A stretch of DNA of 23,713 nt from a virus. The translations under genes were made by a program, and so were the position numbers. Positions within the stretch are counted from its first letter, which is position 1; each line of letters opens with the position of its first letter. The stretch is taken from the IMG/VR virus record IMGVR_UViG_3300025146_000068, positions 1 to 23,713 of that record. The stretch is one strand, 5' to 3'. The notes under the pieces are model-generated. The model was not told the origin of the DNA and did not search any database. It saw only the letters and a program-made list of their open reading frames with translations. This document shows, in pieces, positions 11,526 through 23,713 of this stretch.

Positions 11526-14500
11526 CTAGCTCCTCACGAACCCTCTTCTGTACGTGCCGCGGAAGACTCGCATCTGGTGCTCGGTGACGATCTCAGCCAG
11601 CTGCTTCATCCCACCCTGGCCTACAACGTTGCCAATCTGGTAGGTGTTGACGAAGGTGACCGGAGCTTGGGCTCCAGTGTTGCCGGCAAGAGTACCCATC
11701 AGGCCCCTTGTCTGCTGATTGCTGAGCACGCGGCTGCCTGTAGGAACAGCGACAATCTCCTCGCCCTGCTCACCCACCTTGATGAGACCGCCAGCTAGAC
11801 CACCCAGTGCCTTGCTCTTCAGCCCCTCAAGCGACTTGATAGCAGTATCCAAGTTGGGGATTCCGATAGCACCCAAGATAAACTTGGTGAAGAAGCCACC
11901 CGGTATCTTGTTGAGAACCTTCAGCAGCCCAATGACTGCATCTAGCAGGGTGTTCTTAATAGACTTAACGGCACTACCAAACCCGCTGGCGATAGCACCC
12001 CCTAGACTGGATCCAACACCACTGAGTGTAGTCACCACACTACTTACCTTACGCGCCGTGCCTATGACAGCTACCTTGGCCGCATTCAGAGCCGCGACAA
12101 TCACTGCTCCCAAGTCTCCGAGACCTGACTTGAATCCGCCCAGCACCTTGCCTCCAAGCGTTACCGCTGTGTTGTAGACATCGGTGAACTTGTCCTTCAT
12201 CCCTTGGATCAGCCCGGCAACCTTGCCCGTAGCCCATGTCAGGAGATTGCCTACACCGGAGGCGAGACCAGACACGATCTTTCCTCCTAGTGTTACTGCT
12301 GCCGTGAAGACTGCGGCCACGGCGCCGGTAATCGCAGAGATGATCTTACCCATGGCAGTAGTTAGCAGAGCCAATAGCTTCTGCGGCAGCTTGGCGAAGT
12401 AACCGACGATATCATCGATCAGGTCTGGAATGATGGAGGCACCCACCAGCTCCCTTGCCAGCATCTTGAAGAAGTCGATTACAGCGTCAACCAGCTCAGA
12501 CACGTAACCAACAACCTTGCCTGGGAAGTCCTTGAAGTAGCCAAGAGCCGCATCGAGAGTGTTCGTAACTATTGCGACAAGGCTTCGGCGGAAGATATCC
12601 CAGACTGCCTCGATGTTATTGAGCCCTATCTCAAAGACGCCGGTTATGACATCCATGAACCCCGAGACCGTACGCTCTACCATGCGTAGGGGAGTAGTCA
12701 CGAGACGGACGAAGTCTCTCCAAGCCCTTCCCCACTCACCACTGAGCAGGTGTCCGACCAGCGAGACCATGGCTGCCAGGCCCTCCCCAAGGGCTATGAT
12801 CGGAGCCATAGCGACCTTGAAGAGTCCCCTAAGAACTTTCAGGGCCGGGGCCAGTGAGCTGGAGAGGAAGTCTACCAGCTCTTCGAATGCGATCACTACA
12901 ACATCGTTGACTGTCTTCGCTAGTAGTCTAAAGAGTACTATGTGGAAATCGAGTACGGGCTGAATCTCTGCCTTGAAGATCCTAGCTAGCCCGCCCAATG
13001 CAGCAATCAGGATTGGCAGCACCGGCCCCTTGCTGAAGTCGCTGATTCCCTTGAACAAGACACCGAACGAGGACAAGAGTTCAGATGTAGCCCCGCCCAA
13101 ATCACGCAGTGGTCCGAGGAAGCCAGAAAGTACACCCAACGAAGGACCCAGATCGGGCAGAGTCAGAGATGGCAGTGCCAGAGAGGGCAAGCTGATACCG
13201 CTTAGAGCCTCACGCAGCTGAGCCGGAAGCAATCCCTTCAAGAAGCTCCCTAGCTTTCCCACGCCCTCTGTGAATGCTTTCTTCACACGGTCGTCAAGGA
13301 AGATGTCCAAGGCCACGGAGGCAATAGCTCCGATTATGGCACCGGCGACGGCGCCTACGACGGTACCGACACCTGGGAATACCGCGGACCCAACAGCAGC
13401 CCCAGCCAACGCCCCACTGATGGCTCCGAAGATAACATCGGAGACGATCAGGGCCAGTCCTTGGAACTTACCCGGTACGAAAGCTTCAATCATGCTGCGA
13501 GTGAAGATCTCAGCTATCAGCAGACCTATGTTCAGCTTGGTGAACACGGCCCTCAGCATGGTCGGGATGTCCCGTATGACTAGCATCAGGCCAGCCTTCA
13601 GGCTGGAGCCGAGGATACGGAACGGGGTGGTAATCGGTGCCATCGCCAGTCGGCCGGGAGCAGTCATGCTTTTGAGGATCGTCTCGATGAGAGTGTCGGA
13701 TTCTTCCTTTGCTATCTTGGAGATGACGCGCAGGCGGAGCAGGTCACCCAGAGGATCAGTGAAGTCCTTCGTAAAGAACCTAACGACTCCCTTGCCTAGA
13801 CGCCCCGCGGCCGCTGCCCAGCGTCTGAGTCCACTCTCAGCTACCTCGTCGGCACTGGTACCAAACATCCGCGCCATGTCGTCAGTAAACTGACCGATAG
13901 CCCTTGCTGCTGGATTCAGTGCTCTCCCTATACGTCTGCCAAGAGCACTACCACCAGCTCCCACGAACCCCTTCACGAAGTCGGCGAAGGCCAAGGTCAC
14001 AGCGTGCAGTCCAATGACCGCCAAGTGCGAAGGCTTGCCCAAGGAGAGCAGACCATCTGCCAGGTCGACAGCGAAGTTCTTCAGCTTGGCGAACTGACCG
14101 CCGAGGTTCAAGGACTTGAGCATCTGAGCAAGAGCCCGGAGCTGGTCGATAACGGGCTTGATAAGTTGGAGGAAGCGGCGGAAGGCGCCGGCAGCCAGAT
14201 GGATGAAGGCAGCTAGCTTGACGAGAGCTGCCGACAGCAGCACTGCCAACTTCAGCGCTAGCAGAAGGCTGCCCACTACCAGAACTCCAATCGTCTTGCC
14301 AAACTTCTCTGTGTCAGGAACAAGGAGCTGCATGGCCGTACGCATGTTGGTAAGGAACTTGTTCCACAGCCTCTGCGCCGGCTCGGAAGCCTTTAGGCCT
14401 CGCACGAGTAGGGAGACTGTATTGAGAAGGTTAGCCAGACCATTCATGGCCGGCGCCAGCACGTTCCTTGCGAACGGCTCAGTGACATCCCTGACGAAGC

Positions 14501-17126
14501 CGTTGAAGGCCTCCCTGACCCTGTTCAGTGCGCCTGGCAGCGTTCTTGCATAGTCCTCAGCAGCACCCTTGTAGCGCTGAAGGAGGTTGATAACAAACTC
14601 AGCTCGCTCAGATCGGCTGGCCTCATTCAGCTTGTCCAGATTCTTGTTAAAGATCTCCGGGATGACACCCATGGTGTCACCAAGAGTCTCCAGTGATCCA
14701 CGCTGACGTCCAATTGCACTGGTAAGAGTATCTGTGGCCTGTTCGAAGCTAAGGCTGAAGGTACGAGCAAAGTCGGCTACGAGGTCCCGGTTGGCAAGCA
14801 GCGGACCGAGACCCTCTCTTTGCATCTTCGTCAGACCGGATGTGGTGTCGTCCAAAGCGAAGCCGAAGCGTCGCACGAGCACCTCGGCGGCTCTGAAGAA
14901 GGCACCCACCTCCCGGGCACTCCCCAGCTGCCGCATCATCTGGAAGCGAAGCACCTGCATAGCAGCACCGGCCCCCTTGGCGCCAGCAATGAAGCCGGTC
15001 CAGAGCTTCATCACTCCGCCAAGAACAAAGGTCAGTGCGGTGAAGGCAAGCATCACCCGGACGACAGTGAAGCGCATGAAGATAAGGCCAAAGCCCGCAA
15101 ACATGAGGTTACCGCGGAGAAGGGCCAGTGCTGTCATCACGCCCTGGGTTGCTGACTGGAGGAAGAGGAGAGCTTGGGCGCTAGTTCCCGTGTGCGAAGC
15201 AAAACCACGGTGGGCCATCTGTACTTCGCGCAGACGGTTCTTCTGTGCTTCCAGTAAATCACTGGTATCGGTCAGGATGGGCACCTGAGCAGCTAAGCTT
15301 GCTCGTACCCCAGCTGGCAGTCCTCTCTCCTGCGCCAGTCCCTGTGCTTGGGCTCGGAGACTCTCAACAGCCTCAGAGGAGATATCTCTACCTGACCGGG
15401 AGATCCTCTTGAAGGTGTTGTCCAGCTGAGTGAGAGGGGCAACAGCAGCCATCGCCTCCTGAGCTGTCTTGGCTAGCTCACTCCCCATGCTTTGCATTGC
15501 CGGTAGGGACCGCCTAGAGACCTCAGTGCTAACGCTGGCCAGTTTCTGGGCCATGGTGTCGAAGTTGCTGGCTATCGACTCCAGTGCCGGCGCCAGTTCT
15601 GGCTCCACGCCGGCCAAATTGCGAAGAGACAGAGAGAGCTTCTCCAGAGAGCCTTGTGTCACCGACCCGGACTGCTCGATGCGAGATAGCTGCTGGGCGA
15701 TGTCCTCAGCCATCTGCGCAGATTGTGGCGCCTCTGGCATAGAGATGGATGCAGGCACCTGCTGTAGCAAGTCTCGAAGGGCCGTGACTTCCGGCCGGAG
15801 TGCGGCAAAGGCTCTGGTGCCGGCTCTGTTGAACCTCTCGACCCGGTTACCAAGGAGATCTACATCCGCAGTCACTTGCTCGATCTCGCCAGAGACGCCT
15901 GCGAATTGATCCTCAGCCAAGCGGGCTAGGTTACCAAGTCCGGATATCTGGCTAGAGGAGACTCTGCCCTCTCGATTGAAGCCCCTCAGTATCTTCTCAG
16001 CAGAGGACAGCGTGTTGACATACGGAGCTAGAGCTTGGTGGGCACTCAGGAGAGATTTTATCTGGTCTTCAAGAACCGAAACGTTACGTCGATCCTCGTC
16101 TGTGAGTTGTCTGCCCGCTGTTGCAGCCGCATCCTGCTCATCTCGCAGACGTTGCAGCTCGCCACCTAGAACTTGGATGCTGCGGGAGACAGTCCGGTAC
16201 ACAGCATCAAGCGTCTCCCCCGGCTGTGCGAGACTCTCTATGGACTTACGGACAGCATCAGCGTTGATCGCACGAGTATCTATCCTGAAGCCACCCAAGC
16301 CGGCACGCACTCGCTCTAGGCTCTCTATGATCGCAGGATCAGCAGGAACCTGCTTGAGGGCATCCACTATCTCTTCCAACGAGTCCCGTATCTCAACCGA
16401 CTGCCGCCTCAGCTGCGGAGAGACGCGCTCGAGACCTCGTACGATATTACGGCCCAGATCTGAAGCAGCACTCGCCAGATCTGGTCTTCCTAGCTCACGC
16501 AGCGACTGCTGCACGTTGGCGACCATCGCATTGACACGCTCGGCGAGTCGTGGAGAGACCTGCCCGCCGGCAGAGATCCTGGCAAGCTCTCTCTCAAAGG
16601 TGCGTATTGGGACAAGGGACTGCTTCAGTCGCGCAGCTTCCTCAGCCACGCTGGCAGCCATATCTCGTAGAGGCTGAACGATCCCACCCGCACCCGTGAG
16701 AGTGCCACGTGTCATGCTCACAAGCCCGCGGGCCATGCGCTGGGCATTCTGCTCGACATCTGTGCTTATTCTGTCAAGCTCAGAGGCCAGACGAGCACCG
16801 AGATCTCGGACACGATCAGCTGCTTCCTTGTTACCCAGCTGTAGAAGTGACTGAACGATCTGTCCTGTCTGGGCCCTGACCTGCTCCGCTGTGCCTCGAG
16901 GGACAAGGCCCGTAGCAAAGATCCTGTTCAGGCGCCGCTGGAAGTCCTCTACAGGAACTGCAGCGGTTGCCAGCCCAGCAGTCATCTTGGAGATGTTCAC
17001 AGCAGGAGCAGCAAGCTTCTGCCTGCCGGCTGACTGGAAGGCACGGTTGACGTTGAGGACCTCACGAGCCATAGCCCGGAGGTTCTCGAGACCAGAGACC
17101 TGTGCGCCTATACGAAAGTCAGGCAT
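11526..17126 (-). CDS. Tape measure protein
   Basis: 1866 residues, the longest gene here, sited after the tail chaperones as is usual. It acts as the ruler and scaffold inside the tail tube and is ejected with the DNA. Residues 1-640 are mainly helical and hold several degenerate repeats. Strongly hydrophobic stretches lie at about 651-710, 945-985 and 1225-1277 (GALAGAAVGSAVF, then GAVAGAIIGAIASVAL), plausible membrane-interacting parts. Residues 1611-1675 hold two AVTLGGK(I/V) units. Near the end, GLIKVGEQGEEIVAVPTGSR (about 1781-1799) is the classic tape measure C-terminal motif. At roughly 1.5 angstrom per residue the tail would be about 280 nm. There is no recognisable lysozyme or peptidase domain. 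The start is 3 bases after the previous stop. Confidence 0.96.
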   Translation of the reverse strand: MPDFRIGAQVSGLENLRAMAREVLNVNRAFQSAGRQKLAAPAVNISKMTAGLATAAVPVEDFQRRLNRIFATGLVPRGTAEQVRAQTGQIVQSLLQLGNKEAADRVRDLGARLASELDRISTDVEQNAQRMARGLVSMTRGTLTGAGGIVQPLRDMAASVAEEAARLKQSLVPIRTFERELARISAGGQVSPRLAERVNAMVANVQQSLRELGRPDLASAASDLGRNIVRGLERVSPQLRRQSVEIRDSLEEIVDALKQVPADPAIIESLERVRAGLGGFRIDTRAINADAVRKSIESLAQPGETLDAVYRTVSRSIQVLGGELQRLRDEQDAAATAGRQLTDEDRRNVSVLEDQIKSLLSAHQALAPYVNTLSSAEKILRGFNREGRVSSSQISGLGNLARLAEDQFAGVSGEIEQVTADVDLLGNRVERFNRAGTRAFAALRPEVTALRDLLQQVPASISMPEAPQSAQMAEDIAQQLSRIEQSGSVTQGSLEKLSLSLRNLAGVEPELAPALESIASNFDTMAQKLASVSTEVSRRSLPAMQSMGSELAKTAQEAMAAVAPLTQLDNTFKRISRSGRDISSEAVESLRAQAQGLAQERGLPAGVRASLAAQVPILTDTSDLLEAQKNRLREVQMAHRGFASHTGTSAQALLFLQSATQGVMTALALLRGNLMFAGFGLIFMRFTVVRVMLAFTALTFVLGGVMKLWTGFIAGAKGAGAAMQVLRFQMMRQLGSAREVGAFFRAAEVLVRRFGFALDDTTSGLTKMQREGLGPLLANRDLVADFARTFSLSFEQATDTLTSAIGRQRGSLETLGDTMGVIPEIFNKNLDKLNEASRSERAEFVINLLQRYKGAAEDYARTLPGALNRVREAFNGFVRDVTEPFARNVLAPAMNGLANLLNTVSLLVRGLKASEPAQRLWNKFLTNMRTAMQLLVPDTEKFGKTIGVLVVGSLLLALKLAVLLSAALVKLAAFIHLAAGAFRRFLQLIKPVIDQLRALAQMLKSLNLGGQFAKLKNFAVDLADGLLSLGKPSHLAVIGLHAVTLAFADFVKGFVGAGGSALGRRIGRALNPAARAIGQFTDDMARMFGTSADEVAESGLRRWAAAAGRLGKGVVRFFTKDFTDPLGDLLRLRVISKIAKEESDTLIETILKSMTAPGRLAMAPITTPFRILGSSLKAGLMLVIRDIPTMLRAVFTKLNIGLLIAEIFTRSMIEAFVPGKFQGLALIVSDVIFGAISGALAGAAVGSAVFPGVGTVVGAVAGAIIGAIASVALDIFLDDRVKKAFTEGVGKLGSFLKGLLPAQLREALSGISLPSLALPSLTLPDLGPSLGVLSGFLGPLRDLGGATSELLSSFGVLFKGISDFSKGPVLPILIAALGGLARIFKAEIQPVLDFHIVLFRLLAKTVNDVVVIAFEELVDFLSSSLAPALKVLRGLFKVAMAPIIALGEGLAAMVSLVGHLLSGEWGRAWRDFVRLVTTPLRMVERTVSGFMDVITGVFEIGLNNIEAVWDIFRRSLVAIVTNTLDAALGYFKDFPGKVVGYVSELVDAVIDFFKMLARELVGASIIPDLIDDIVGYFAKLPQKLLALLTTAMGKIISAITGAVAAVFTAAVTLGGKIVSGLASGVGNLLTWATGKVAGLIQGMKDKFTDVYNTAVTLGGKVLGGFKSGLGDLGAVIVAALNAAKVAVIGTARKVSSVVTTLSGVGSSLGGAIASGFGSAVKSIKNTLLDAVIGLLKVLNKIPGGFFTKFILGAIGIPNLDTAIKSLEGLKSKALGGLAGGLIKVGEQGEEIVAVPTGSRVLSNQQTRGLMGTLAGNTGAQAPVTFVNTYQIGNVVGQGGMKQLAEIVTEHQMRVFRGTYRRGFVRS

Positions 17127-17129
17127 TGT

Positions 17130-18107
17130 CTACCTGCGCCTCCGCGGACGTAGCGCGGTTCTTACTGCTCGTATCGCCTCTCGCTCGCGTCTCGTACCTC
17201 GTACAGCAGGAGCAGCTATACCCTCACGAGCAACACGTCTGGCTGCTCTCCGACGGATAGCAATAGCAGCTATGGCGGCCGCACGACGCACTGCCTTGGG
17301 AACCACAAGCTCGGCTGCATGTGCCCGTTCGAACTCCTCATTGATACGCTGGTAAGCCTGGCGCCTGCGCTGGATAACAGGCTCAACACCTTGCGCCAGC
17401 TCACGCCACTCTTCATCCGGCGGGGGAGGGATGAGAGCAACCAGCTCGCGCTCCAAGACACGCTCTGCCTCTTGGATCAGCCTTTGTGCTTCAGGCGTAT
17501 CGGGAGACACCTCAGAGAGGAAGTCGTGAGGGGCCACGCCATCCCGGACTATCTTTCCGTAAATACCCCTGATGTGCTTGGCCCCCTCGGGGCTCGTGAA
17601 GTCAATATTCAACTTGTTCGCAGCCCAGTAGGCAATGCGAAGGAAGGGGGGCTGGCTGCCCTTGGCATACGGCGCTGTTCCGTAGAGGATGGGATAGACA
17701 TAGCTAACAGGAGCACGTATAGCTTCTGTCTCCACTCCAGCCTCGCCTGGGAAGGAGCCCACAACAAGGTCAGGAATGGTAACGCCACCCACTTGGGTAG
17801 ATCCAGGCACGAGCCGGTAGTCTATAGTCTGCTGCAACTGACCGGTGAAGATGAGATCCATGTCCTCCATCTTCTGCCGAATGAGGCCAACGTAGATCTT
17901 GCCGAGAGAAGTGAGGAGGCCTTCTATCGCACTCCGAACCTCACCGGGAACAAAGTCGAGCAGGCGGGCGTAGGCTTCGACACGTCCCAGCAGATCCTCA
18001 TTGAGGGTGACTGAGATAGTCGGTGCCTCGAAGTCAACTGGTACCGGTACTTGCGTACGACCGCCGGCGGCCAGACCACGACGTAGGATCTCGGAGGGCG
18101 CAGGCAT
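17130..18107 (-). CDS. HK97 gp10-like tail completion/neck protein with basic C-terminal extension
   Basis: 325 residues. An AGGAGG lies upstream, and the ATG is one base after the TAA of the frameshifted chaperone. The central part, about 85-165, has FTGQLQQTIDYRLV, LVVGSFP, YVYPILYGTAPYAKG and QPPFLRIA, which matches the layout of HK97-gp10-type tail completion proteins (TG.L...I, then Y...YGT, then PPFLR). Residues 265-325 are dominated by Arg and Ala and end RPRRRR, a long basic tail not needed by that family. The position between the chaperones and the tape measure is unusual, because gp10-like genes normally lie before the tail tube gene. The family call is moderate. Alternatives are a tape-measure partner or a protein that touches DNA or RNA through its tail. 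Confidence 0.7.
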   Translation of the reverse strand: MPAPSEILRRGLAAGGRTQVPVPVDFEAPTISVTLNEDLLGRVEAYARLLDFVPGEVRSAIEGLLTSLGKIYVGLIRQKMEDMDLIFTGQLQQTIDYRLVPGSTQVGGVTIPDLVVGSFPGEAGVETEAIRAPVSYVYPILYGTAPYAKGSQPPFLRIAYWAANKLNIDFTSPEGAKHIRGIYGKIVRDGVAPHDFLSEVSPDTPEAQRLIQEAERVLERELVALIPPPPDEEWRELAQGVEPVIQRRRQAYQRINEEFERAHAAELVVPKAVRRAAAIAAIAIRRRAARRVAREGIAAPAVRGTRREREAIRAVRTALRPRRRR

Positions 18108-18108
18108 G

Positions 18109-18755
18109 TTAGCCAGGACCTCCTACGACGCGTACAGTCGGCTTGGCTGGTTGGTAGCCCTCCTGCACCTTGGCAGACTTCTTCGAGAGTGTGTTGTAGA
18201 CACCAATCTGCTTGATGAAGCCTACGGTGTTCTCTTGCAAGAACTCACGCTCCGTCCAGCCGAACTGTTCGCACATGTTGATCTTCATCATCCAAGCGGG
18301 AGCACCCTCACCACCCGACGCTAGGGCCGCGAGCGCCTGCTCCCTTTCGTAGGGGGGACGGCTTCTTCCTCCGCCCGCTTCATCGTGCTCTCCATCATGT
18401 AGTACAGAATCTCGAGTGGCAGCCGGCGCCAACCTGTGGCAGAGTCCTTCGGTGGCGCAAGTGGCTCACCCGTCTTAGGATCGGTGATGTTCCACTCTCC
18501 CGGGAAGAGACGGAGTACGAGTCTCTGCAGCTCGTCCATCATCCCCGGATCCTGTGCCTTCTCCTGCATCACGCCGATCTCGTCGAGTTCTTCGACCATC
18601 AGGGAGTTGGCGTCAAGGGCGTCGTACCAGAGATCAGGCTGTCCGAACGACTCAAGGGTGAGCCGAATCGTCTTCTCCTTGTACCAGCCACCGGTGGTCG
18701 GTCTACTGTTGCTGCTCCGTGCAGCAGCTCTTCTGGTCGGTCTGTTGCTAGGCAT
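18109..18755 (-). CDS. Tail assembly chaperone, -1 frameshift product (gpGT-like)
   Basis: A predicted fusion of 215 residues. Ribosomes read 135 codons from 18755, slip back one base at 18357-18351 and continue through 80 codons to TAA at 18111-18109. The extension starts YEREQALAALASGGEG and contains WMMKINMCEQFGWTEREF, which resembles the second half of tail chaperone pairs. Such longer products bind both the tape measure and the tail tube protein and are not part of the finished virion (family knowledge). The downstream part has no convincing independent start: the ATG at 18432 lies inside the first gene without a ribosome binding site. The slippery site, the gene order and the protein boundaries agree well. 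Confidence 0.85.
18321..18755 (-). CDS. Tail assembly chaperone, unshifted product (gpG-like)
   Basis: 144 residues ending TKGSRRSRP. The ATG at 18755-18753 overlaps the end of the MerR-type gene by 8 bases (ATGCCTAG), and an AAGGAGG stands about 10 bases before it. The protein has a basic, Ser-rich beginning and a helical body (LVLRLFPGEWNI, then WRRLPLEILYYMMESTMKR), fitting the first chaperone. It normally coats the tape measure before tube polymerisation. Its overlap with a regulatory gene is not typical. Confidence 0.85.
   Translation of the reverse strand: MPSNRPTRRAAARSSNSRPTTGGWYKEKTIRLTLESFGQPDLWYDALDANSLMVEELDEIGVMQEKAQDPGMMDELQRLVLRLFPGEWNITDPKTGEPLAPPKDSATGWRRLPLEILYYMMESTMKRAEEEAVPPTKGSRRSRP
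18351..18357 (-). other. -1 ribosomal frameshift site C CCC CCT
   Basis: The minus strand reads GTC CCC CCT ACG in the first frame (codons 133-136). Slipping one base back keeps Pro codons paired in both sites (CCC then CCC), then continues TAC GAA AGG. Downstream there is a GGGAGC...GCTCCC pair with a long loop that could assist, but this is weak. Confidence 0.85.
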
Positions 18756-19116
18756 CTCTCATCTCCTCCTTGTGAACACGAACAACCAAGTCGCCATTAC
18801 CGAGATGAATCAACGTATAGGCGCCACACTCCTCCTTGCTGACAATATTGCTCTGAACACGCTGCCCATCCAGCTCGTACACGTACAAGCCCAGAGGCAC
18901 CGCATCCAGAACTGAGGAACCACCGTTACGCAAGACGTTGTCTATCACCTTCACCTTGTCAACCGCTTCTTCGTCCAGCTTCCCTGTAGGTCTTCCTGGA
19001 CCCTCACGAACCGGTACTGGTGTAGGAAGCCATCCCTTGGAGATGTAATACCGGAGCCTGCGGACTGAGACCCCGGTGCGGTGGCTGACCTCCTGCAAAG
19101 TGACAAGCATCGTCAT
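18748..19116 (-). CDS. MerR-type DNA-binding protein inside the tail operon
   Basis: 122 residues. The N-terminal half is a winged helix-turn-helix of MerR type: VTLQEVSHRTGVSVRRLRYY (6-25), then ISKGWLP and the wing region GRPTGKLDEEAVDKVKVIDN. The C-terminal half, about 62-122, is beta-rich (AVPLGLYVYELDGQRV, then YTLIHLGNGDLVVRVHKEE) and lacks the long dimerisation helix of classical MerR regulators. No signal peptide or Cys metal-site pattern is visible. The gene follows a terminator-like hairpin and a tandem palindromic repeat. Its start has no Shine-Dalgarno, but a -10-like element lies 5 bases before it. Its end overlaps the chaperone gene. A regulator of the downstream tail genes or of itself is inferred. 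A structural use of the fold cannot be excluded. Confidence 0.85.
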   Translation of the reverse strand: MTMLVTLQEVSHRTGVSVRRLRYYISKGWLPTPVPVREGPGRPTGKLDEEAVDKVKVIDNVLRNGGSSVLDAVPLGLYVYELDGQRVQSNIVSKEECGAYTLIHLGNGDLVVRVHKEEMRDA

Positions 19117-19151
19117 AAACTACAGTAGACGCTGGCTGGAAAAGGACGCAA
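19116..19151 (-). promoter_or_regulatory. Candidate promoter giving a leaderless transcript of the MerR-type gene
   Basis: On the minus strand TTGCGT (19151-19146), an 18-base spacer and TACTGT (19127-19122) are followed by five bases and the ATG at 19116. A start of transcription 6-7 bases after the -10 would fall on the A of ATG. The absence of a ribosome binding site supports a leaderless start. The motif match is moderate. Confidence 0.4.
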
Positions 19152-19160
19152 CTTCTGCTT

Positions 19161-19184
19161 CATATACATGTACATATACATGTA
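19161..19184. repeat. Perfect tandem 12-bp repeat with palindromic cores (candidate operator)
   Basis: catatacatgta occurs twice in direct succession (19161-19172 and 19173-19184). Each copy contains the palindrome tacatgta, and a further tgtaca lies at 19188-19193. The repeats stand 10 bases upstream of the candidate -35 of the MerR-type gene, in the only long noncoding stretch near it. An operator for that protein or another regulator is inferred. Confidence 0.65.
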
Positions 19185-19189
19185 TTGTG

Positions 19190-19228
19190 TACAAAGCAAA
19201 GCGATCGGCCCATTGCTGAGCCGACCGC
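19190..19228 (-). terminator. Rho-independent terminator after the tail tube gene
   Basis: The minus-strand RNA would fold GCGGTCGGCT (arm 19228-19219) with GGCCGATCGC (19210-19201) around an 8-base loop, 10 pairs including two G-U, followed by TTTGCTTTGT. The hairpin begins 22 bases after the tail tube stop. Confidence 0.65.
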
Positions 19229-19250
19229 CAGAAGGAGATGAGGTGGTTGT

Positions 19251-20264
19251 CTACGAGCCGATGGTGTATGCGGTGGCCAGAGCATTGCGCATGCGCATGC
19301 GGATGTTGCTCTCTACAGAGGCCTTCCACGAAGAGGACGACGTCCCGATCAGACCGCGGAAGTTGTAGGCGATCGTCATGTTGTTGCCGCTCCTGTCGAT
19401 CTCGGCCGGGCTGTCTCCATAGGAGGCCTTCGGGAACTCGAAGTCAATGGAGCGGGTTGCGGCGCCGGCACCGTAGGCGAACTCCAGGATCAGTGCCTCG
19501 TTGGTCAGTGCCCTGTACAGCTCCAAGTTGGCAAGGACGTCGAAGGAGGCTGTGAACCGACCCGTGACTGCGATAAGGCCCGGGATGAGCTTCACCGGGA
19601 ACTTGTTGTTGTTGGCGACGTAGAGTAGCTCCGCATCGCGGGCGATGGCGATCTCACCCTCGATCAGCCTGCCAGTGGCACCGGTGCCGAGGCCGGAGCT
19701 GGTGGCCACATTGGCGTGCCAACCGCGCAGAGGCTCGTCAGTGCTATCGGAGACGGCAGCCTGGGCAGTTGTGGTCACCATACCCTTGCCGAGGATGTTC
19801 GCCTCATAGGTGAGAAGGCCGGTAGATGAGTTGAAGCGGAAGGTCAGACCGGTTGCAACACAGCCTTGGTGGGTGTACGACTCGCCGCCAGCCAGCGCGT
19901 CGTCCAGAAGCTGGATCTGGAAGGAGCGGCCGCCGGCATCTGCCATGGACTGGATGTCGAATACGTGAGCGTACGGTGCAGCAGTGCCAACAGTGTCAGC
20001 ACCAATAATGCTGCGAATGAGGTGGCCGATCTCGTCCGGGTAGGCGGGACCTCCGATCGAGAAGTCGGTCCTGTGAACACCCTCCAGTTGCCGGAAGCCA
20101 ATGGCAGCTAGGCCGCGCCTGGCATCATCGAACAGCGTTTCGACCGTATCGACACCGGAGGTCGGATCGATCGGAAGCATCGCCCATGTCGGGGATGCTG
20201 GGAGCGACCCCCACGTTGCAGTTTCCGGGGTGATGAAGGCCTTAAAGCCTGCAGAAGTGGACAT
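19251..20264 (-). CDS. Major tail tube protein
   Basis: 337 residues. The start at 20264 is preceded by AGGAGGAGCAAGCA, the strongest ribosome binding site of the group. The protein forms the hexameric rings of the tail tube. The N-terminus (STSAGFKAFITPETATWGSL) opens like many tube proteins, and the strand-rich body (FSIGGPAYPDEIGHLIRSII, then LTFRFNSSTGLLTYEANILG, then IEGEIAIARDAELLYVANN) fits the tube beta-sandwich fold. It lies between the connector genes and the chaperones, as expected. It has its own strong ribosome site, a terminator after it and possibly one before, suggesting control of its very high output. No immunoglobulin-like C-terminal domain is evident. Confidence 0.85.
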   Translation of the reverse strand: MSTSAGFKAFITPETATWGSLPASPTWAMLPIDPTSGVDTVETLFDDARRGLAAIGFRQLEGVHRTDFSIGGPAYPDEIGHLIRSIIGADTVGTAAPYAHVFDIQSMADAGGRSFQIQLLDDALAGGESYTHQGCVATGLTFRFNSSTGLLTYEANILGKGMVTTTAQAAVSDSTDEPLRGWHANVATSSGLGTGATGRLIEGEIAIARDAELLYVANNNKFPVKLIPGLIAVTGRFTASFDVLANLELYRALTNEALILEFAYGAGAATRSIDFEFPKASYGDSPAEIDRSGNNMTIAYNFRGLIGTSSSSWKASVESNIRMRMRNALATAYTIGS

Positions 20265-20311
20265 TGCTTGCTCCTCCTATTCAGTTACGGGAAGGCAGAG
20301 TACCGGAGAGT

Positions 20312-20347
20312 AAAAACACCTTCCTGAATCAGATTAAGGTTCAGGTG
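20312..20347 (-). terminator. Possible weak terminator before the tail tube gene
   Basis: On the minus strand CACCTGAA (20347-20340) can pair with TTCAGG plus TG (20328-20317) with a 4-base bulge and an 11-base loop, followed directly by TTTTT (20316-20312). It begins 15 bases after the stop of the 173-residue gene. The bulge makes it weaker than the other two hairpins. Confidence 0.4.
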
Positions 20348-20362
20348 GCAATGGCGGCAACT

Positions 20363-20884
20363 TTAGACCCCAGTCTTGATCTCCACAGTACGTCTCTCCC
20401 TGAAGTCCATACGTATCTCGCACGAGTGGCAGGCATACGGCCCCAGTGTCGCGTGCAGTATCGAAGTCACCTGTGGAGCACTGACTTCCACGATATCTGT
20501 CCTCGCTTCGGTAAGCTGTATCTCTGTCAGACCTTCAAGCTCTACAATCACCTCGTCGATGAGACTCTGGAAAGTGTCCCACGTACCTTCGCCCATACCT
20601 AAGTAACCACGAACTACCATGTGGCTAACAACAAACCTCTGTTGCGGTGGTAGCTGCCCTCTCTCAATCGAGACCGACGTCCTACCCAGCTGCCACACGT
20701 TAACCGAGGCCTGCTGTTCAAGGACGTCGTCCTCCTCGCTGGGCTCGACTGCTAGCTCTGCCATCTCGAGCAGAGTACGTGCATCCTCCTCCCCGATGTA
20801 GACCTTACCTACCCCGTCTACCTGCTCCAAGAGAGAAGCGACCGCGGCCGCAGCAGCCATCCATTGGGGCATCGCATGGGCCAT
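20363..20884 (-). CDS. Probable tail terminator / tail completion protein
   Basis: 173 residues, starting 3 bases after the upstream stop, with GGGTAGGTAG as a modest ribosome site. A helical beginning (WMAAAAAVASLLEQVDGVGK) is followed by strand-rich parts (NVWQLGRTSVSIERG, then RFVVSHMVVRGYLG), a helix WDTFQSLIDEVIVELEG and further strands. This alternation and size, and the position just before the tail tube gene, fit tail terminator proteins that stop tube growth and join the tail to the head. The Cys pair ACHSCEI (about 153-159) is notable but isolated. The call rests on order and fold pattern rather than a recognised signature. Confidence 0.6.
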   Translation of the reverse strand: MAHAMPQWMAAAAAVASLLEQVDGVGKVYIGEEDARTLLEMAELAVEPSEEDDVLEQQASVNVWQLGRTSVSIERGQLPPQQRFVVSHMVVRGYLGMGEGTWDTFQSLIDEVIVELEGLTEIQLTEARTDIVEVSAPQVTSILHATLGPYACHSCEIRMDFRERRTVEIKTGV

Positions 20885-20887
20885 TGG

Positions 20888-21616
20888 CTACCTACCCAAG
20901 AACCGGCTCGTGCCTTGGCCATGAGTGAGTGGCGGCCTACCCCAGCTCATTGTGTTAGGGATCTCGCCGGCTACTGAAGCTGCGGGCTGCCTAGAGTCTG
21001 CTGGCACCCCAAGAAGGTCGTAGAACATGGAGAGGTGCTGCTCGGCCACTCGGAGGTACTCGTTTGTCTGAGACCGAAAGCCTACAGGATCGTCTCTGAT
21101 CGCAGAAGGAGTCAACTTCGCGGCCTCTGCCGCCATGCGCATAGCAAACCTGTGCGTAGCGAGATGGCCCAAAGCCTCCTTGTCACTATCAGCAATAGTT
21201 GTACCTGTAGCTTCTGTACCGAGAATGTGTAGGCGTGTGTAGGTGATCCTGGCAGTCTTCCCAGAGGCTGGAGTGGTTGATTGGAACCGAATGACCGTGC
21301 CACCCGTGTCGTCGTAGGCAGTGACCTCGAGCATATCCAAGAAGGTGGGAATACGGTCACCCTGCGGATACTCGACACTCACTACAGCGCTGAAGCCATC
21401 TTGCCAGTCCGAGGGAACAGCAAAGTCATAAGCGGCACCATCACCCGCCTCGTCAAAGAACGCAGTGTCTGGCTTGATCAGACTGTAGAATGCGACAGCA
21501 TCCTGGATCAGGGCCTCAAGGTCTGGATCCTCCACCCCTCCCATACGCGAGGGGATGCCATGGCTACCAAAGTGCGCCAGAACAAGCTCTTGGATTGAGG
21601 CAAGATCAAAAGACAT
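20888..21616 (-). CDS. Probable head-tail adaptor/connector protein
   Basis: 242 residues, starting 3 bases after the preceding stop. Helices at both ends (FDLASIQELVLAHF, then LEALIQDAVAFYSLIKPD, and later DKEALGHLATHRFAMRMAAE and LRVAEQHLSMFYDLLG) surround a beta-rich centre (VVSVEYPQGDRIPTFLDM, then GTVIRFQSTTPASGKTARI). Helical bundles with a central strand insertion are typical of adaptors below the portal. Its place between the capsid and tail terminator genes agrees. The C-terminus is probably flexible (AGEIPNTMSWGRPPLTHGQG). No specific family signature is recognised. Confidence 0.6.
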   Translation of the reverse strand: MSFDLASIQELVLAHFGSHGIPSRMGGVEDPDLEALIQDAVAFYSLIKPDTAFFDEAGDGAAYDFAVPSDWQDGFSAVVSVEYPQGDRIPTFLDMLEVTAYDDTGGTVIRFQSTTPASGKTARITYTRLHILGTEATGTTIADSDKEALGHLATHRFAMRMAAEAAKLTPSAIRDDPVGFRSQTNEYLRVAEQHLSMFYDLLGVPADSRQPAASVAGEIPNTMSWGRPPLTHGQGTSRFLGR

Positions 21617-21619
21617 CGT

Positions 21620-21985
21620 CTAGGTTTTGCCTTCGTAGACCCCGTTGATAACGATGCTAGGGGTGGCACCGGCAGGAGTGATCGAGACTCTGATGCGGCT
21701 TCCCAAGTTGTCTATGGTAACCATCTGCTTTTGGTTCTGGCCATCGCCGAGGGGACCGCCAGTAGTGGTAAAGGCAGACATTGAAATATCGCCGCGGTCA
21801 AACCACTGACCGGTCTTCGGGTCCTGCTGCTGAATCTTTGGTGTCCACGTACCAGCAGAAACGTCGGCGTCGAGAAAGACACGGCCCTCGATGTGACTGC
21901 CGACTGGAATGGTGGCACTATCCGTAGTTTGGGTCAGCGTGACCCCATCCCAGAACTTCCTGGCGGACGTGACGTGTAGGGCCAT
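21620..21985 (-). CDS. Small beta-rich protein, possibly head decoration
   Basis: 121 residues with a strong AGGAGG 7 bases before the ATG. The sequence consists mostly of short strands (VTLTQTTDSATIPVGSHIEG, then VFLDADVSAGTWTPKIQQQD, then SRIRVSITPAG, then SIVINGVYEGKT) without helices or Cys. Its position directly after the major capsid gene, its size and its own ribosome site suggest a capsid decoration or stabilising protein. An alternative is a small connector component. There is no recognised family signature. Confidence 0.55.
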   Translation of the reverse strand: MALHVTSARKFWDGVTLTQTTDSATIPVGSHIEGRVFLDADVSAGTWTPKIQQQDPKTGQWFDRGDISMSAFTTTGGPLGDGQNQKQMVTIDNLGSRIRVSITPAGATPSIVINGVYEGKT

Positions 21986-22004
21986 GTCTCTACCTCCTAC
22001 CTAG

Positions 22005-22034
22005 AGATTAAGGTCTAGCTGCCAGAGGACACAA
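22005..22034 (-). promoter_or_regulatory. Weak candidate promoter between capsid and decoration genes
   Basis: Minus strand TTGTGT (22034-22029), an 18-base spacer and TAATCT (22010-22005) directly follow the terminator-like hairpin. Transcription would begin near 21998, at the ribosome binding site. The match to the consensus is modest. Confidence 0.25.
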
Positions 22035-22075
22035 AATCCAAGAGGGGAGACTGCCCCGCAACAGCCTCCCCCCTC
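22031..22075 (-). terminator. Terminator-like hairpin after the major capsid gene
   Basis: Minus-strand arms GAGGGG(GG)AGGCTG (22075-22062) and CAGTCTCCCCTC (22053-22042) form 12 pairs with a two-base bulge and one G-U around TTGCGGGG, followed by TTGGATTTTG. The U tract is interrupted, so leaky termination is plausible. It begins 22 bases after the capsid stop. Confidence 0.6.
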
Positions 22076-22097
22076 GTACACCCCCCTAGAAGGACTA

Positions 22098-23713
22098 CTA
22101 GAGGCTAGAGAATGTGGCTCCGACCAACCCCCTGTGGTCAATTGGGTTCGCGCCCCAGAAGTGGCGGACCTTGTACGTGATGCGGTCGTTGGTGAACATC
22201 GCCCCGACCAGCTCCGTGCTCTGGTCCTGTGCGAAGATCTCGGGCTCCTCGCGGCCGTTCAGGAAGCCGACCTCGATCATCGGGATCTCGGTAGGACCTG
22301 CGGCCAGAACCCAGATGTTCTTCGGTGCTTGGGTGTCACCACCAGCGTTACCACGATCGGCTGCTGTCTCCCAGTACGGGATGATGAGCAGCTCGAACAT
22401 GCCACGGTGGATGTTCACCTCATGGCTTCCTGCGCCCACCTTCGTCTCGGAATTGAGCAGCGCGAGCCCCATGGCCCTGTTCGTCGGAGCGACGACCAGA
22501 GTCTTCGGAGAGCTCATGATGAAGCTGTGTGCGACAGCTCCAGAGTACGGCGCCGAAGCGCTGACCGCTGCCTGCTGGATCTGGAAGCGCATGAAGGCAT
22601 CGGACAGGTTGGCATCGTTAAGGGCCACGATCGCGGACAGGATGCTGTGCGTGTCGGTCACGATGTTGCCCGGGGAGCGAGCAGCTGCCACATCGAACAG
22701 CCTGTCAGCGCCACCGCTGGTCAGGTAGGTGGACTCGGCAGGGTTGTCGATGAGGAAGTCGAACACCGTGATGTAGATGGTACCGGCAGCCGCACGACCC
22801 AGCTTCTGGGGAAGCGCACGGAACTTGCCGATGTCATCGTTGATGATCATCTCCAGGGTCAGGCTGGCCTGGCCGTGTGCCTTGACCGGCTGGTAGATGG
22901 CCTCCTCTTCCGGCAGCGCTGCACCGGTGAGGTCGGCGTAGGTGATGTCTTGGTTGGACGCACCCACACCACTCTCACGCTTCAGCAGGTAGAACTCGCC
23001 GAGGCGCTCCCTCTTCTGCTCACGCAGGTCGGAGGTAGGCGCCACAGTTGCGATCTTGCGCCAGTCCTGGAGCATCGGGTAGCGGTACTCTATGAGAGCC
23101 CGGCGCGTGATGCTATCGCCGAGGATCTTGCCGAAGTCGGAGGTCTTCATCGCCGTGGCCTCTACGACCCGATCCAAGCCGCGGTTGGACACGCCGGAGT
23201 CGTAGCGCCCAGCGGACTCGAGGACTTCGTATCCGGTCAGGTCGAAGACGTGCGATCCAGTGATGACGCAGAAGGCTTCCTTCAGCGAGCGGAAGGCCTT
23301 GACGCCATCGACGTCCTCGCCCGCCAGAAGCCCGTCCATGGCCTTGACGTAGCGATCCTGTGGGGCGTCTGCCGCAGCAGCCCACGGAACTGTGGAAGGT
23401 GGCTGGGCCACCATCACGGCCGCCAGAGCAGCCTGCTGTGCGGTCACCTCTTCCTCGAGAGCGACTCGCTCGAAGATCTTGCCAGCCCAGCGGGCACGGA
23501 TCATGTTCGCGATCGGCTCTGGGAGGCGACTCGCAGACAGGATCTCGTCCAGAGCGCGTGCGGACTGCTCGACAGCCCGCTCCTCTTGGATAGTTCGGAG
23601 AGACTCAGTGAGTTGCTGGATGCTCTCCGCAGAGGCAGCCTCAACTGCTGGTGCCTGATCAGCAGCCGGTGCCGGACTTGGGTCCGGTGGCGCCGGTGCC
23701 GGGTCGGGAGCAT
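22098..23713 (-). CDS. Mu gpT-like major capsid protein, C-terminal part of a larger fusion (5' end outside window)
   Basis: The frame stays open from the window edge to TAG at 22100-22098, giving 537 visible residues. The first 69 form a Pro/Ala linker (APDPAPAPPDPSPAPAADQ) and a charged helix (SIQQLTESLRTIQEERAVEQ). An ATG at 23504 has no ribosome binding site and is treated as internal. The capsid core has TSDFGKILGDSITRRALIEY, WRKIATVAPTSDLREQKRER and TLEMIINDDIGKFRALPQKL, the pattern of Mu gpT-type capsid proteins. Members of this group are often encoded as fusions with a prohead protease or scaffold upstream (established for related phages), which would fit the linker and helix. The protein builds the icosahedral head. 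Whether the gene carries a protease lies outside the window. Confidence 0.88.
   Translation of the reverse strand, partial: APDPAPAPPDPSPAPAADQAPAVEAASAESIQQLTESLRTIQEERAVEQSARALDEILSASRLPEPIANMIRARWAGKIFERVALEEEVTAQQAALAAVMVAQPPSTVPWAAAADAPQDRYVKAMDGLLAGEDVDGVKAFRSLKEAFCVITGSHVFDLTGYEVLESAGRYDSGVSNRGLDRVVEATAMKTSDFGKILGDSITRRALIEYRYPMLQDWRKIATVAPTSDLREQKRERLGEFYLLKRESGVGASNQDITYADLTGAALPEEEAIYQPVKAHGQASLTLEMIINDDIGKFRALPQKLGRAAAGTIYITVFDFLIDNPAESTYLTSGGADRLFDVAAARSPGNIVTDTHSILSAIVALNDANLSDAFMRFQIQQAAVSASAPYSGAVAHSFIMSSPKTLVVAPTNRAMGLALLNSETKVGAGSHEVNIHRGMFELLIIPYWETAADRGNAGGDTQAPKNIWVLAAGPTEIPMIEVGFLNGREEPEIFAQDQSTELVGAMFTNDRITYKVRHFWGANPIDHRGLVGATFSSL

Follow-up and report, generated by a model that had tools for sequence, protein, structure and literature searches.

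The order of tail tube, tail assembly chaperone and tape measure genes is among the most constant parts of long-tailed phages. In most siphophages two tail assembly genes lie between the major tail and the tape measure genes, as the accessible part of a survey states (PMC6070908), and the lambda analogy by which such genes are named gpG and gpGT is taken here from the accessible part of PMC6316719. Insertions at this junction are nevertheless on record: a tRNA in Gordonia phages (accessible part of PMC4982279), likewise a tRNA in GMA7, unnamed genes in Microbacterium cluster EI (accessible part of PMC7302621) and, in THSA-485A, a gene of about 271-276 aa (phrog_888). The original prediction that there is normally nothing between tube and chaperone genes thus agrees with the survey but not with these insertions.

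CbpM is the MerR-fold partner of the CbpA co-chaperone. Another MerR-like protein, BldC, binds direct repeats head to tail and has neither the classical dimerisation helix nor a further domain; the BldC family has the conserved hydrophobic contact residues Leu43 and Trp31 (accessible part of PMC5859096). In mycobacteriophage Kashi-VT1 a MerR-like gene is located outside the tail block (accessible part of PMC10400892). In the literature searched, from which subscription papers were mostly absent, no MerR-type gene was described for the tube-chaperone junction. Here we describe a MerR-like gene that is kept at exactly this place in two diverged phages.

Gene order in the window

The window, as we call the whole stretch of 23,713 nucleotides analysed, is a fragment of a virus record, to which the records G001 (52,948 bases), G002 and G003 are near-identical; L008 and G006 are near-identical to the window phage in part only. 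The minus strand carries, in this order, the capsid gene, three small genes of the head-tail region, tube gene, hairpin, 2 x 12 repeat, gene of the 122-aa protein, chaperone pair, gene of a 325-aa protein and tape measure gene. The features discussed below are as follows (L026 is a locus of a second phage lineage).

22039-22076, minus strand: stem-loop after the major capsid gene, parallel to the one after the tube gene (folding; L026 has a counterpart)
19251-20264, minus strand: tail tube protein gene, 337 aa (PF18906, E 2.8e-17; phrog_290, E 9.9e-26)
19200-19229, minus strand: stem-loop just 3' of the tube gene, 13 bp, terminator-like, with a modest T-rich tail (folding and conservation)
19161-19185, no strand: strictly alternating pyrimidine-purine tract of 25 nt with the 2 x 12 bp repeat TACATGTATATG (19161-19172 and 19173-19184), lineage-specific
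18748-19116, minus strand: 122-aa protein with a MerR-type winged helix-turn-helix (Pfam; orthologue L026:10181-10540)
18919-19104, minus strand: winged helix-turn-helix part of this protein, residues 5-66 (model matches CadR)
18778-18891, minus strand: predicted beta-rich C-terminal part, residues 76-113, replacing the MerR dimerisation helix (model, moderate confidence)
18321-18755, minus strand: tail assembly chaperone, gpG-like, 144 aa (place between tube and tape measure; L026 relative 45%)
18109-18432, minus strand: frame-shifted, gpT-like chaperone extension, named by analogy (slip site; comparison with L026)
11526-17126, minus strand: tape measure protein gene, 1866 aa (matches listed from the phages collection mostly annotated tape measure, covering 14% of the query)

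The chaperone was assigned by its place and by comparison with L026; the 144-aa open reading frame had no match in Pfam or PHROG. At the frame change of the chaperone a C-rich slip site, GTCCCCCC, is common to both lineages (18352-18359 in the window, L026:10918-10925).

The capsid open reading frame (22098-23504) is truncated at the window end; in G001 the frame extends further upstream (L018:6192-8000) and may encode a protease-capsid fusion. The capsid block of G001 is preceded by glycosyltransferase-like genes and a fused acetyltransferase-aminotransferase-like gene (L018:438-5123), named by sequence appearance. Two inteins are present in G001, one inside a Sak4-like AAA protein and the other inside a DEAD helicase (L015:14087-15973 and L016:3093-5684); in the second lineage the matches to both helicase parts lie no more than 42 nt apart, which leaves no space for an intein. 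No tRNAs were found in L015, L016, L018 and L026, and Rfam at its gathering threshold gave 0 matches in the window, L015, L016 and L026.

A second lineage with the same tail block

In a capsid alignment with Microcystis phage Mae-JY22, 80 loci were kept out of 194, namely four of the window's own phage, two (L025 and L026) of a second lineage with a capsid identity of 56% (records G004, G005 and G053) and 74 less closely related ones. Over the sequence compared, L025 does not differ from L026. The latter carries the entire tail block in the same order as the window, the identities being 56% for the tube, 53% for the MerR-like protein, 45% for the chaperone, 58% for its extension, 27% for the 325-aa protein and 40% (best stretch) for the tape measure protein. 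Conservation at this place in related phages had been proposed as a check of the original prediction, and the second lineage indeed keeps the gene. Within residues 1-30 of the MerR-like pair 24 of 30 are identical; the L025 contig stops within the gene, and its 30 residues match at 80%. The gap between tube and MerR-like gene is 134 nt in the window and 125 nt in L026, whose MerR-like protein has 119 residues. The predicted overlap of the latter gene with the chaperone gene (open reading frame 18755-18321) was found as described, 8 bases in the window, and is 4 bases in L026. In the 118 codons compared between the two lineages the MerR-like gene agrees at codon positions 1, 2 and 3 to 0.64, 0.73 and 0.34, as expected for selection on the protein.

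Further relatives were sought in several ways. A hidden Markov model (HMM) of the two MerR-like proteins found none in the other loci (best in another phage, E 0.44; one frame in the window's own phage at 0.03 resembles a chance frame). The absence of the gene from the 74 more distant loci is weak evidence, since many of these loci are short contigs and the tube HMM recognises this tube family only in THSA-485A, L025, L026 and the window's records, leaving the tubes of the 74 loci unrecognised. Alignments of tube and tape measure proteins, made in search of a third lineage, returned only the window phage and the second lineage; from these scans came G053, the early half of the second lineage, which has 6,560 bases in common with G004 at 99.97%. 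The gene is present in two of two lineages of this tail module and, given the same place and an equally strong hairpin after the tube gene in the second lineage, appears to be a stable part of it.

A moron, that is a single foreign gene inserted together with its promoter, useful to the host or the phage and not to tail assembly, would be an unlikely explanation of the gene. The missing relative in the 74 capsid-related loci, the hairpin in front of the gene and its GC content of 54% versus 58% in the window would suit such an insert, but the gene overlaps that of the chaperone and has no promoter of its own (see below), so that the promoter and terminator typical of a moron are both wanting, and its 53% identity falls within the range of its tail neighbours.

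The MerR-type protein

The original prediction of a 122-residue protein with a MerR-type helix-turn-helix (open reading frame 19116-18748) was borne out by Pfam, in which both proteins exceed the curated cut-offs: with PF00376 (cut-off 28.2 bits) the window protein scores 30.2 and its L026 relative 33.5 bits, with PF13411 (cut-off 21.6 bits) 28.1 and 27.0 bits. Across 51 records PF13411 matched five with E up to 0.01 (G001, G004, G043, G044 and G046), and its cut-off was exceeded in two, G001 and G004, which are the two lineages. A further weak MerR_1 match (E 0.001, under the cut-off) lies in the early region of G001 at 49574-49642 (L115). Around the recognition helix the helix-turn-helix parts of the two proteins hardly differ (VSVRRLRYYI versus VSVRSLRYYI).

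AlphaFold2 from the single sequence was useless (pLDDT 33.5). From the two sequences it gave a model with a mean pLDDT of 67.7, in which the winged helix-turn-helix of residues 5-66 is followed by a C-terminal part of four predicted strands (76-82, 85-97, 100-105 and 108-113; block pLDDT there about 50-68), in line with the beta-rich half that had been foreseen. After residue 64 the model has no helix of more than three residues and hence not the long MerR dimerisation helix. CadR headed the VIA-align 2 list (Z 10.1, 57 residues, rmsd 1.2); below it came numerous MerR proteins as well as CbpM (Z 8.4), where rows differing by no more than 1 count as ties. Of the 50 matches listed, 42 end by residue 66. 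Foldseek with the model gave no match at E <= 0.001; its rows include the Xis of phage Pukovnik, and in PHROG excisionase families were weakly matched (E 0.0035 and 0.025). A sequence search of the PDB gave as best match the putative transcriptional regulator 2dg6 (E 0.066), the phages collection one weak match (E 0.3) at a gene that bears the annotation primase C, and Genome_contigs no relative in two scans.

The best Foldseek row was CbpM (E 0.023), and both lineages have the overlap with the chaperone gene. The MerR-type fold might hence serve protein contacts, helping or restraining the tail chaperone as CbpM does with CbpA. The CbpM match, however, is not significant and is tied with many DNA-binding MerR proteins, and the sequence matches the Pfam MerR models; we hold such a role to be quite improbable.

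Hairpins, promoters and Shine-Dalgarno sequences

The hairpin after the tube gene (19229-19200) has a folding energy of -23.6 kcal/mol (z -4.41; 0 of 200 shuffles equally good), and the stem-loop at the same place in L026 one of -33.6 kcal/mol (z -5.60). The flank shared by the two phages has an alignment score reached in 0 of 1000 shuffles; the alignment of the stretch from hairpin to start codon was not significant (P 0.24). The stem-loops after the capsid gene have z values of -3.61 and -5.44 in the two lineages. A terminator scan alone was not above chance (6 found versus a mean of 4.7 in shuffles), so that of the terminator claimed after the tube gene there remains a hairpin that is supported by folding and conservation and not by the scan. 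Termination at the L026 hairpin is doubtful because there is no T tract. The hairpins after tube and capsid genes look like ordinary end-of-message or stabilising elements after abundant virion proteins.

The promoter-like pair that had been read in the leader did not hold up. A tool for sigma-70-type promoters found 0 sites in 14000-23713, and our own scan of the leader was no better than 300 shuffles with spacers of 16-18 (P 1.0); with spacers of 19-20 the best site of the window has 8 of 12 matches (P 0.50 versus 300 shuffles) and that of L026 has 9 of 12 (P 0.06). With no detectable promoter a separate transcript is unsupported. The MerR-like gene has no clear Shine-Dalgarno sequence upstream in either phage. 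AGGAGG-like sites are present before the window genes tube, chapG, g325 and g121; the absence before the MerR-like gene is not special, since g242 and g173 (242 and 173 aa) of the window are likewise without a clear one.

The tandem repeat

The perfect 2 x 12 bp repeat of the original prediction is present at 19161-19184, is unchanged as a 24-mer in the three near-identical records G001-G003, and has no counterpart among 200 shuffles of G001 pieces, in which no perfect tandem 12-mer occurred. As RNA the repeat stretch would fold, though weakly, with a z of -2.49 that 2 of 200 shuffles equalled. Its 8-mer core TACATGTA was not found in the second-lineage sequence (G004, G005, L122, L123, L124, L125, L026 and L025). 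In G001 the 20-mer TACATGTATATGTACATGTA occurs once more, within a 37-nt alternating run of the early region, in the gap before an unrelated leftward early gene. The product of this gene matches phrog_5706 (E 2.8e-34), and relatives of it occur in 49 phage records, of which 26 are Caulobacter phages; the gene has no copy in the second-lineage records searched (G004, G053 pieces). Two TTGACA promoters adjoin the second 20-mer copy, TTGACA-18-TACCAT just past it and TTGACA-17-TAGATT further up, and on their account we rejected an archaeal TATA box as an interpretation of the repeat.

Alternating runs of at least 16 nt number 11 in G001 versus a mean of 0.56 in 200 shuffles, and a run of at least 24 nt occurred in 1 of the 200. 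Ten of the 11 lie in three places, the tail repeat, the second copy and an array near the helicase gene, in which eight runs of 16-17 nt form 17-bp units; the 11th lies inside the tube gene. The AT-rich array has 8 copies in G001 (L016:5862-5996, G001 50862-50996) and 2 copies in G053 (L125:851-884), and lies 83 nt beyond the end of a 245-aa gene in G001 and 89 nt beyond that of its counterpart in the second lineage. The place of the 17-bp array is kept between the lineages, unlike the tail-region repeat. In G001 copies of a repeat of the CTTACATT type flank the array in inverted orientation; the array may represent an origin or a set of operators.

The original prediction had taken the repeat for the operator of the gene beside it: the MerR-like protein would bind there and switch the chaperone and tape-measure part separately from the tube. 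A repeat far above chance between hairpin and gene fits this proposal, as do the binding of direct repeats by MerR-like BldC (accessible part of PMC5859096) and a near-dyad 20-mer that would also suit a dimer. The repeat is, however, missing in the relative that retains gene and helix-turn-helix, and a near-unchanged helix should read much the same DNA; the repeat is therefore unlikely to be a general operator of the MerR-like protein, and at best it would be a site gained in one lineage. Together with the same 20-mer before an unrelated early gene and the lack of a promoter, this makes a switch with its own operator unlikely. Because the element is absent from the second lineage and recurs in the early region, with similar 17-bp units in the array, it is lineage-specific and genome-wide, not an operator private to the tail genes.

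Another protein of the phage or the host may instead use the repeat, its second copy and the array as sites, for example in replication or early transcription, or they may be tracts grown by slippage, in either case unrelated to the MerR-like protein. We consider this somewhat more probable than not: the excess of alternating runs is concentrated in just these three places, the AT-rich 17-bp repeat follows the 245-aa gene at nearly the same distance in both lineages, and just beyond the second copy there is the TTGACA-18-TACCAT promoter. Against it stands the first copy, directly before the gene of a DNA-binding protein, the usual autoregulatory position. Were the tail-module regulator to read the alternating sites in its own leader, before the early gene and beside the helicase gene, it could link tail production to early shut-down in a late-to-early feedback switch, which we regard as distinctly unlikely.

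Proposed function

Of the self-contained switch for the tail genes a MerR-type gene conserved in place has stood up, whereas the operator, the promoter and the attribute self-contained have not, the switch being weakened by a repeat that is lost in the relative and recurs, as an identical 20-mer, in the early region. We prefer, at slightly better than an even chance, to see in the protein a phage DNA-binding regulator, in which a winged helix-turn-helix of MerR type is joined to a separate C-terminal part rich in beta strands, that is a stable member of the tail module. For this count the MerR helix-turn-helix in both proteins, the same place in L026, the CadR-like fold and hairpins with z of -3.61 to -5.60; against it count that two lineages only are known, that the structural model comes from two sequences and that no promoter is detectable. 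The hairpin after the tube gene would end or trim the abundant tube message. The regulator would then be made at a low level only, from read-through or a weak start, without a clear Shine-Dalgarno sequence, and might repress or activate phage promoters elsewhere, at a late stage and in low copy number; the 2 x 12 repeat would at best be a lineage-specific site of it.

Retention of a MerR-type protein between tube and chaperone genes in two diverged phages suggests regulatory signals to, or from, virion assembly, which are absent from textbook late operons. The remaining interest is in this conserved protein of the tail block with its C-terminal part of, as modelled, unfamiliar structure. The locus also illustrates that a striking repeat beside a regulator gene need not be the operator of that regulator.

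Comparison with known systems

With the classical MerR regulators (CadR, CueR, SoxR and NmlR) the 122-aa protein has the N-terminal winged helix-turn-helix in common, by sequence and by model. These regulators have a long dimerisation helix and a metal or effector part, neither of which is seen in the 122-aa protein, where the model predicts a beta-rich C-terminal part instead, and they act on a long-spacer promoter, of which the scan before the 122-aa gene found none better than in shuffles.

Like BldC, the protein has a MerR-type winged helix-turn-helix without the classical dimerisation helix, and a direct repeat lies upstream of its gene. BldC, however, with 68 residues, consists of the winged helix-turn-helix only, whereas the 122-aa protein has the additional C-terminal part; and the BldC repeat is AATTXXXX(C), from which the window repeat differs in sequence and in its 12-bp step, besides not being kept in the relative. 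The excisionases of the Cox/Xis type belong to the same winged helix-turn-helix superfamily and are weakly matched in PHROG, but the 122-aa gene is in the tail block. CbpM shares the winged helix-turn-helix fold and is not among the sequence matches of the protein.

The chaperone pair of the window and L026 with its slip site resembles the frameshift pairs of SPP1, as given in the accessible part of PMC6316719. At the junction itself no MerR-type gene has been reported or seen in Gordonia phages, GMA7, THSA-485A or cluster EI (the last by description), as far as the accessible parts of the sources go, whereas in the window and L026 the insert is a MerR-type gene.
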